A stretch of DNA of 41,682 nt from a virus, in the IMG/VR virus record IMGVR_UViG_3300028897_000222, positions 1-41,682 of that record; one strand, written 5' to 3'. The notes below the pieces were generated by a model that did not search any database, was not told the DNA's origin, and was given only the letters and a program-made list of their open reading frames with translations. The position numbers and the translations under genes are program-made. Positions 37,031-39,860 of the stretch are shown in pieces (the stretch's first letter is position 1; each line of letters begins with the position of its first letter).

Positions 37031-39129
37031 AATTCCTAATGGTCGCTCCCAAATTCGTATCTAAAATAGGGTTGTATTATGATTTCCCTATAGGGGTAGC
37101 CTATATTTCGGCTGTGCTCAAGCAGGCGGGGTTCGATGTAGAGACCATAAACCTATGTCACAGCAAATTACAGGTCGACCAGGCGCTTGAAAAGGTCATA
37201 AACGAAAAGTGCATAGACGTGGTTGGCATTGGTGGTCTCTCGCCGCACTTTCACATGGTGAATGACATATTAAAAGAATGCAAAAAGGTAAATCCAGACA
37301 TAATCACAATTGTGGGTGGTGGTTTAGTCAGTTGCGAGCCAGAAATGGTTTTAGAAATGCTTGATGCCGATATAGGCGTTTTAAACGAGGGTGAAATTAC
37401 GATACAAGCACTCGCAGGCAAATTAGTGGACGGCAAATCGCTTGATTCGGTAAAAGGCATTGTTTACAAAGATAAAAACGGCACAATAAGGCGCAATCCG
37501 CCCAGAGAGCGGATACAGGACTTAGATACACTTCCATGGCCCGATTATGAGGGTTTTGAGTTAGGCAGATACTTAGATTTGCAGTGGCCCAATGATATGG
37601 ACGCTCTAAACTTCTATGAGGATCCCCGTGTGGCGCCACTGATAGCAAGCAGGGGGTGCCCTTATCCATGCACATTTTGCTTCCATCCAATAGGCGATAA
37701 ATACAAGCAGCACTCCCTAGACAACATATTTGAGCACATTGAATATCTCATAAAAGAGTACCAGATAAACGGCTTGTTTATGTTGGATGAGTTATTTGCC
37801 ACGAAAAACAACCATAAGCGCCTAAAGGAGTTTTGCCACAGAATAAAGGAATATCCCCTCCAGTGGTTTGCCCAATTGCGGGTGGATTCGGTCAACAGGG
37901 AGATTTTGCGACTGTGCAAGGATAGCGGGTGCAACCTTATCAGTTACGGCATAGAAAGCGCCTCCAACAAGGTGCTAAAGAGCATGAAAAAGCACATTAC
38001 GGTCAAACAGATAAATAAGGCACTGGAGGAGACGTATCAAGCAGGAATAGGCAATAAGGGCAACCTGATATTTGGCGATAAGGCCGAAACCGTCGATACC
38101 ATAAACGAGAGTCTAAAATGGTGGAGCGAAAACATAAAATATCAAATTCAACCATCGGCACTGAGCGCCTATCCGGGCACCCCGCTATATCACTACGCCG
38201 TAAAAAAGGGTCTCATAAAAGACAAAAAAGCGTTTTTGAAATACAACCAGTGGGTTAACGTGACCAATATGACACAAGAAGAGTTTAACGCCATGGTAAA
38301 CGTCATTACGGTGTCCAGACGGCACATATGTCGGATACCAGCCAAAGTGTTGTCCTGCAAGGAGTTATACGGGGATGAGATAAAGGGCAAGGCGTATTCC
38401 TTTGAGGTTCAGTGTCCCCACTGCGGGCAAAACGTGAAATACGAAAAAATGAACAGCTCTGGAACGGGTCTGTCAATTTACAACATCATATATTGCAAGG
38501 CGTGCCACCAGAAGTTTAATACGTTGCCCTTCAACATAGAGAAAACCATAGCGGACTTTTTGGACATGGTGGGTGATGACGAGTTTGCAATATGGGACAA
38601 CGTGAACATGCTGACCGCCATGAACGTGCGGTTGATGGAGCGGGTAAACTATGTTATTCCAAGGAATGCAAAACCAGAAGAGGTGAGAAACTCGGTAAAA
38701 CACGTGCTTTATACGGTGAACAAAAAATTTGAAAGAAAGCAGTTTAGTCAAGTTTTGGGTCTAAGGGTGCGTGGAATAAACGTGGTTCCCCTCTATCTGT
38801 ATACTCATGTTGAGGATGCCATGGAAGTGATGATTCAGTTGGCCTCAATAGGAATACAAAAACAGGAAACGGACGTGGTGGCGTTACGGCAAGAACTGGG
38901 TTTGGCGGCCATGAGGGAATGCAAGGCCGAATACCCTTATGCAATGTTTGCGGAAGGATACACGGCAGACGTTTGGGACAGTAAGGAACACAAAGACAAA
39001 ACGGCCATCTGGTTTATTCCCGTGCAGGTTGGGGAGAAGGTGACCGCAATGTTTGGGTTTGAAATGCCCAACTCAAAATGGAACATCGGATTTCAGATAC
39101 CAAAGGATTTTATGCTACGTGAATTTTAA
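37027..39129 (+). CDS. B12-binding-domain radical SAM protein
   Basis: 700 residues. Residues 1-150 form a cobalamin-binding-like Rossmann domain (FPIGVAYISAVLKQAGFDVE, DVVGIGGLSPHF, IVGGGLVSCEPE). The radical SAM domain follows with CPYPCTFCF (Cys211, 215, 218) binding the 4Fe-4S cluster, then LFMLDELFA and ISYGIESAS. From about 460 a zinc ribbon (CPHCG...CKACH) and a C-terminal domain of unknown fold are added. Such enzymes do radical methylations or rearrangements. The substrate is unknown; nucleic acid is possible given the ribbon. Next to a DNA methyltransferase. Rare in a 40-kb phage. Confidence 0.88.
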   Translation: MKFLMVAPKFVSKIGLYYDFPIGVAYISAVLKQAGFDVETINLCHSKLQVDQALEKVINEKCIDVVGIGGLSPHFHMVNDILKECKKVNPDIITIVGGGLVSCEPEMVLEMLDADIGVLNEGEITIQALAGKLVDGKSLDSVKGIVYKDKNGTIRRNPPRERIQDLDTLPWPDYEGFELGRYLDLQWPNDMDALNFYEDPRVAPLIASRGCPYPCTFCFHPIGDKYKQHSLDNIFEHIEYLIKEYQINGLFMLDELFATKNNHKRLKEFCHRIKEYPLQWFAQLRVDSVNREILRLCKDSGCNLISYGIESASNKVLKSMKKHITVKQINKALEETYQAGIGNKGNLIFGDKAETVDTINESLKWWSENIKYQIQPSALSAYPGTPLYHYAVKKGLIKDKKAFLKYNQWVNVTNMTQEEFNAMVNVITVSRRHICRIPAKVLSCKELYGDEIKGKAYSFEVQCPHCGQNVKYEKMNSSGTGLSIYNIIYCKACHQKFNTLPFNIEKTIADFLDMVGDDEFAIWDNVNMLTAMNVRLMERVNYVIPRNAKPEEVRNSVKHVLYTVNKKFERKQFSQVLGLRVRGINVVPLYLYTHVEDAMEVMIQLASIGIQKQETDVVALRQELGLAAMRECKAEYPYAMFAEGYTADVWDSKEHKDKTAIWFIPVQVGEKVTAMFGFEMPNSKWNIGFQIPKDFMLREF
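39106..39129 (+). repeat. 3' end of the radical SAM gene, duplicated at 39837
   Basis: Encodes DFMLREF-stop. The same eight codons recur at 39837-39860 with three synonymous differences (Leu, Arg and Glu codons), just after the methyltransferase gene. Confidence 0.75.
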
Positions 39130-39833
39130 TGCGAGAACTCAGTTTATTTAGTGGTGCGGGGGGAGGATTACTAGCAACTAAGCATTTATTGGGATGGACA
39201 ACTGCAGGATATGTTGAAATTGAACCATACTGTCAGGCAGTCTTGGCTCAAAGAATCGCTGATGGATACCTTGATCCTGCCCCCATCTTTGGGGATATCA
39301 GGCAATTCATCTCGGAAGGTTATGCCGAAGCATATCAGGGGATGGTTGATGTCATTACGGCAGGAGTTCCATGCCAAGCCTTCAGTATCAGTCGGCTTAA
39401 AAACCTTAAAACAACAGCCCCAGATTATTTCCCAGACACCCTTGAATGCGTTCGCTTGGTTAGACCATCGTATGTGTATTTGGAGAACGTTCCAAATCTC
39501 CTTAATAACTCTAGATTTGGGAAAATTCTCACAAAATTGGCCTTCTTGGGGTACAACACATCTTGGGGTTGCATTTCAGCAAAAAGCGTGGGAAGCAACC
39601 ACACAAGAAACCGATTGTGGATTGTTGCCTACCCCGCAAAAAAGGGACAGTACCCGAAAGCGATCAATCAAAGGCGACAGATTACCAGATGTTCTTGGTG
39701 GTTTACCGAACCCCGCATATCTAGAGTGGATGATGGGGTGGCCTATGGGGTGGACAGACGTAAAATGCTTGGGGAAGGACAGGTTCCAAGAGTGGTTGAG
39801 GTTGCATGGAAAATATTAAGCAATAGTACATAA
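39129..39833 (+). CDS. DNA cytosine-C5 methyltransferase (Dcm-type)
   Basis: 234 residues, TAATG overlap with the radical SAM gene. Motif I ELSLFSGAGGG at the start, motif IV GVPCQ (catalytic Cys82), motif VI ENV (119-121), motif VIII HTRNRLWIV (about 158-166), motif X GVDRRKMLGEGQVPRVVEVA near the end. The target-recognition region is short. It would methylate C5 of cytosine, often to evade host restriction. The DNA from about 39620 also reads in frame +1 as LLPTPQKRDS...GGLPNP and EWMMGWPMGWT, which are typical C-terminal motifs of other phage methyltransferases. Confidence 0.88.
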   Translation: MRELSLFSGAGGGLLATKHLLGWTTAGYVEIEPYCQAVLAQRIADGYLDPAPIFGDIRQFISEGYAEAYQGMVDVITAGVPCQAFSISRLKNLKTTAPDYFPDTLECVRLVRPSYVYLENVPNLLNNSRFGKILTKLAFLGYNTSWGCISAKSVGSNHTRNRLWIVAYPAKKGQYPKAINQRRQITRCSWWFTEPRISRVDDGVAYGVDRRKMLGEGQVPRVVEVAWKILSNST

Positions 39834-39836
39834 AGG

Positions 39837-39860
39837 GATTTTATGTTGCGGGAGTTTTAA
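39837..39860 (+). repeat. Diverged copy of the radical SAM 3' end
   Basis: Codes for DFMLREF-stop with synonymous changes, without an upstream reading frame of its own. It marks the downstream border of the methyltransferase and looks like the remnant of a related radical SAM gene. Confidence 0.7.

Follow-up and report, generated by a model that had tools for sequence, protein, structure and literature searches.

Two overlapping reading frames of a phage locus probably encode the subunits of a split C5-cytosine methyltransferase

Results

The locus lies in a virus record from IMG/VR; the full 41,682 bases of this record are referred to here as the window. Frame 0 encodes a protein, alpha, whose start codon overlaps the last base of the stop codon of the upstream gene (TAATG) and which contains motifs I, IV (PCQ), VI (ENV), VIII (RNRLW) and X, so that the catalytic motifs expected of PF00145, namely I, IV (PC), VI (ENV) and VIII, are found within one protein. 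This frame ends in ...RISRVDDGVAYGVDRRKMLGEGQVPRVVEVAWKILSNST before its stop codon at 39831-39833. The +1 frame of the same bases is free of stops from 39175 to 39819, almost the length of the gene, and its tail reads CGLLPTPQKRDSTRKRSIKGDRLPDVLGGLPNPAYLEWMMGWPMGWTDVKCLGKDRFQEWLRLHGKY up to the stop codon at 39817-39819. A first-pass annotation of this DNA had noted two readings over the same bases at the end of the gene, and both are present as described. The overlap in the tail is therefore real, but its confinement to 39600-39833 is not, as this interval covers the last third of the gene; since the +1 frame is open from 39175, the flagged tail is only the last part of a second ORF, here called beta, that is almost as long as the gene itself.

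Table 1. Coordinates of the coding features and predicted protein segments at the methyltransferase locus
Feature	Position	Strand	Basis and remarks
Alpha, C5-cytosine methyltransferase catalytic subunit	39129..39833	+	234 aa; PF00145 1.5e-27, phrog_363 2.2e-46
Alpha residues 187-215, disordered linker	39687..39773	+	pLDDT < 50; same DNA encodes beta motif IX
Alpha motif X region (VDRRKMLGEGQVPRVVEVAWKIL)	39747..39821	+	alignment; overlaps beta C-terminus; helix 220-231 in model
Beta, +1-frame ORF, predicted target-recognition/motif IX subunit	39211..39819	+	202 aa from ATG 39211; phrog_1008 3.2e-15, phrog_35493, phrog_26627
Likely beta start codon	39211..39213	+	82 nt after alpha start; ATG formed by alpha Gly-Tyr-Val-Glu codons
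Beta segment GLLPTPQ...GGL, putative TRD region between motifs VIII and IX	39616..39705	+	family segment test SN 0.09 vs NS 2.02
Beta motif IX, PNPAYLEWMMGWPMGWTD	39706..39759	+	match to motif IX of single-chain C5-MTases

The AlphaFold2 model of window alpha (pLDDT 83) comprises a confident C5-methyltransferase core over residues 1-178, weaker near 81-100, together with the motif X helix, and its best PDB fold matches are C5-methyltransferases (DNMT1/MET1, M.HhaI and M.HaeIII). Neither a recognition domain nor a small domain was found in this model, and motif IX was absent from alpha, also in a scan with a motif matrix; the chain that holds the core thus provides neither the recognition domain nor motif IX. 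Motif X in window alpha reads GEGQVP (39771-39776, residues 215-216), where nearly all relatives have GNGQVP or GNAQVP. A 28-nt direct repeat, 82% identical between copies, lies on both sides of the methyltransferase gene: the upstream gene ends in the first copy (39102-39129; KDFMLREF and stop) and the second (39833-39860) follows alpha, as if the methyltransferase gene had been inserted as a cassette.

The +1 run of the window spans 214 codons, a length reached in 0 of 20,000 synonymous-codon shuffles of the gene (mean 81, maximum 192; p<1/20000), and none of the 27 other window ORFs of at least 150 aa showed a comparable +1 excess in the same test. The open tail alone is common by chance, being kept in 41% of synonymous shuffles. 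Searches with tblastn using either frame led to the same distant-phage loci, in two corresponding frames, and the +1 tail matched the protein profiles phrog_35493 (1.7e-11), phrog_26627 (9e-10) and phrog_1008 ('DNA methyltransferase', 8e-7).

Viral contigs and bacterial genomes supplied 240 further loci; together with nine phage loci, these gave 247 usable genes, which come from phages, prophages and bacterial chromosomes. Nearly all of these genes keep the +1 frame open over nearly their whole length, with 0-2 stops against 3-9 expected from shuffles, and stops abound in the +2 frame. After redundancy reduction to 92 clusters at 75% identity, the +1 run was significant at p<=0.01 in 76 clusters. 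Strong beta similarity was present in 51 clusters, and across these the +1 frame has 102 stops against 329 expected and the +2 frame 695 against 683 expected; G+C is below 50% in 11 of these clusters. Chance or an effect of G+C content is ruled out by the synonymous shuffles, the +2 control and the AT-rich members, which extend down to ~39% GC.

Selection on the two frames was assessed in 32 independent pairs by classing isolated substitutions according to their effect in both frames, with the observed number taken relative to opportunity. Substitutions silent in both frames scored 3.28, alpha-silent, beta-changing substitutions (SN) 1.19, alpha-changing, beta-silent substitutions (NS) 0.52 and those changing both proteins 0.11. 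Alpha-silent substitutions that create a stop in the +1 frame were seen once against ~37 expected (0.03), and with the +2 frame as a control the first two classes scored 1.34 and 1.13 and stops 0.69, indicating no selection. Both frames are therefore under purifying selection in the family. Segment by segment, the core is constrained in alpha (NS 0.20, SN 1.20), with 0 stops in the +1 frame along it against 30 expected. Between motifs VIII and X this is reversed: SN substitutions numbered 6 against 70 expected and NS substitutions 142 against 70, so that conservation is strong in the +1 frame and frame 0 drifts. The last segment, the tail, is constrained in both frames. The reversal in the segment from motif VIII to motif X would be difficult to account for if it were not the +1 protein that functions there. 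At the level of the family, then, the gene is dual coding and constraint is partitioned between the frames. Evidence from the window's own lineage is thinner, consisting of six pairs, and is clearest in the tail, where constraint runs in the same direction as in the family; no clear beta constraint was detected in the core or N-terminal part among these six pairs.

These results bear on whether the +1 frame is a fossil or a product of chance, an untranslated shadow cast by the conserved gene in frame 0 or left by a frameshift in the past. Real shadow similarity does exist, since the beta profile gives weak matches over single-chain C5-methyltransferases, in which the +1 frame has internal stops and the tail is absent. 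The +1-specific avoidance of stops and constraint, the clean +2 control and the reversal between motifs VIII and X all speak against this explanation, to which we give hardly any credence.

The conserved end of beta, NPxWVEWLMGWPxGWT, aligns with motif IX of single-chain C5-methyltransferase controls, e.g. FTPNEVERVQGFPVDWT. Using a motif IX matrix built from six single-chain controls, with the control windows picked by eye, the best match of beta falls in NPxWVEWLMGWP in ~70 of 91 clusters, and median scores were 18.8 for beta, 4.0 for shuffled sequences and 2.8 for alpha; the score of window beta itself is marginal (232/5000 shuffles). In four loci (L013, L017, L089 and L213) alpha stops after motif VIII and beta continues in frame from motif IX into motif X (ENRVxRLKAIGNGQVP). 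Because the +1 ORF holds IX and X in one frame in these loci, an ancient frameshift, which the first-pass annotation had invoked as a link between two methyltransferase subfamilies, fits as the evolutionary origin of the arrangement, but not as such a link. Profile searches of Pfam and PDB with beta returned no methyltransferase, no Pfam family and no solved relative, and the AlphaFold model of beta was of poor quality (pLDDT 67) and had no PDB match. The profile phrog_1008 is labelled 'DNA methyltransferase' yet matches the +1 product, over much of beta, and not the catalytic frame; as the matched product is without catalytic motifs, the label was probably inherited from the overlapping gene.

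Beta is most likely the target-recognition and motif IX subunit, as judged from its motif and the segment in which it is conserved. It might instead be a genuine overlapping gene product that has nothing to do with target recognition and serves, for instance, in counter-restriction or regulation, a reading that would accord with the lack of a solved relative or Pfam family and with an N-terminal half that is new sequence over the catalytic core. We regard this as improbable, since motif IX is found in beta, which in four loci also contains motif X in the same frame, the parts absent from alpha are exactly those present in beta, and beta was not found apart from alpha in the loci examined.

Separate initiation of beta appears well supported at the level of the family. 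In the majority phage class, 126 of 134 members carry NTGAATG, which would place the beta ATG 4 nt after the NTG of alpha (ATG in 73, GTG in 35 and TTG in 18), and a single Shine-Dalgarno sequence precedes both starts. Seven other members of this class have TTAAATG, most with a Shine-Dalgarno-like match a few bases before the beta ATG; with TTA at the alpha position, alpha must start upstream in these members. The window's clade falls outside the majority class, and here the first beta ATG is often 70-85 nt inside alpha, formed by the codons for Gly-Tyr-Val-Glu. No strong Shine-Dalgarno sequence was found before ATG 39211, so we infer the start at this position, and separate initiation of beta in the window phage is only plausible.

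Programmed +1 frameshifting was weighed against separate initiation. A slip after motif VIII would fuse the core to the recognition segment and motif IX, beside the unshifted product, and it is consistent with this that the two parts so joined to the core are set exactly one frame ahead of it, that natural indels yield fusions of core and tail (in L101, L146 and the Llama phage group) and that the N-terminal half of beta is not clearly constrained in the window's clade. However, the beta ATG is invariant in the majority class, and the core is also without +1 stops, which a late slip would not require. We therefore consider frameshifting unlikely, albeit the least unlikely of the alternatives. 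The first-pass annotation had also proposed that both ends are made here; this is supported for the family, as purifying selection acts on both frames, but rather than two alternative ends of one protein, the two readings are better regarded as two proteins of a split enzyme.

Several loci carry natural variants of the gene. In L101 (1474-2279) and L146 (2100-2895) one frame switch swaps the halves, giving alpha-N joined to beta-C, and alpha-C; the switch in L101 sits at a run of G, and both switches may be sequencing errors or real variation. In Mycobacterium phage Llama (L004, 1441-2200, genes 74/75) the methyltransferase consists of two overlapping ORFs and the third frame holds a tail of the beta type (NPVWIEWLMGFPPNWT); a split methyltransferase of this type recurs in several independently deposited related phages. 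One in-frame stop interrupts alpha in L176 (2426-3214), where the overlapping beta ORF is intact. In an E. coli prophage (L287, 1503-2264) the record lists alpha as a pseudogene that contains an internal stop, and beta is also stopped in the same region, so both appear broken.

Alpha accompanies beta in every viral locus that the beta profile retrieved, and no standalone beta was present among the 80 viral loci picked by this profile. A broader beta profile yielded 36 bacterial loci, all of which overlap alpha one frame back, and again no standalone beta was found in these 36 loci, drawn from ~745 bacterial genomes of three phyla plus seven seed genomes. Genomes with a beta-profile match numbered 16 of 249 in the Pseudomonadota, 3 of 247 in the Bacteroidota and 6 of 249 in the Bacillota, counts in which a few matches are only a single-chain shadow and only the best candidates per genome were scored. 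The proposal that the +1 ending belongs to a separate methyltransferase subfamily does not survive, because in every locus examined WVEWLMGWPxGWT comes from reading a gene of this same kind in the +1 frame; the co-occurrence of both endings in every such locus rules out two separate subfamilies. Ten annotated public records were checked, and these name alpha alone in eight cases, beta alone in two and both in none.

Discussion

Taken together, the locus very probably encodes an overlapping alpha/beta split, i.e. heterodimeric, C5-cytosine methyltransferase in frames 0 and +1. Alpha would be the catalytic body, in which motifs I-VIII serve to bind SAM and to catalyse the reaction, and would also contribute the motif X helix. 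A disordered linker would take the place of a target-recognition domain, and beta would fill this gap with the VIII-IX recognition segment and motif IX. Each protein would have its own start codon, within NTGAATG in the majority phage class and at the internal ATG 39211 in the window phage, and the two may assemble on DNA as one C5-methyltransferase with which the phage could modify either its own DNA or that of the host, probably as a defence against restriction. We infer the translation and assembly of the two proteins, the identity of the target reader, its part in specificity and the anti-restriction role.

The overlapping arrangement may well be the normal state of a large prokaryotic clade of C5-methyltransferases, marked by a C-terminus of the RVxxGVxxRVDRLKxLGNxQVP type, so that many annotated solitary enzymes would be half-annotated; this wider claim is made with less assurance than that for the locus. 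The specificity subunit of many phage and bacterial 'cytosine methyltransferases' would then be the other frame, to which prediction of specificity would shift. This would account for methyltransferases that look incomplete and would mend annotations naming one protein of two. Long same-strand overlapping genes are considered rare in prokaryotes, and this would be an old and widespread pair of them. Our search of the literature, covering largely open-access papers, found no description of overlapping frames in phage C5-methyltransferases. Split C5-methyltransferases are already known; what seems new within the searchable literature is how far the two genes overlap and how deeply the overlap reaches across phages and bacterial phyla, together with the evidence for recognition in the +1 protein and the near-universal half-annotation.

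Single-chain C5-methyltransferases of the M.HhaI type share the catalytic core and motif X with alpha, but their single chain also contains the recognition domain and motif IX, both of which alpha is without. M.EaeI is also an alpha/beta split C5-methyltransferase. The natural two-polypeptide enzyme M.AquI has motifs IX and X in its smaller subunit (PMC3404938); the beta proteins of L013, L017, L089 and L213 resemble this subunit in carrying both motifs, whereas in most members of the present family motif X stays in alpha. M.EcoHK31I requires two polypeptides, with motifs I-VIII and X in the larger and motif IX only in the smaller, and its predicted recognition domain is placed in the larger subunit (PMC3404938). 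The window family likewise has motif IX in a separate smaller polypeptide and motifs I-VIII and X in the larger, a likeness in the described arrangement of motifs. The beta subunit of M.EcoHK31I is said, in work by Lee et al. from 1995, to be read in another frame inside alpha, and here, too, the smaller subunit is encoded inside the gene of the larger one in a different frame. Unlike the description of M.EcoHK31I, the selection test between motifs VIII and X points to recognition in beta, and the alpha model offers only a disordered linker. The phage class differs further from M.EcoHK31I in that beta spans nearly the whole alpha gene and the ribosome-binding site is common to both.
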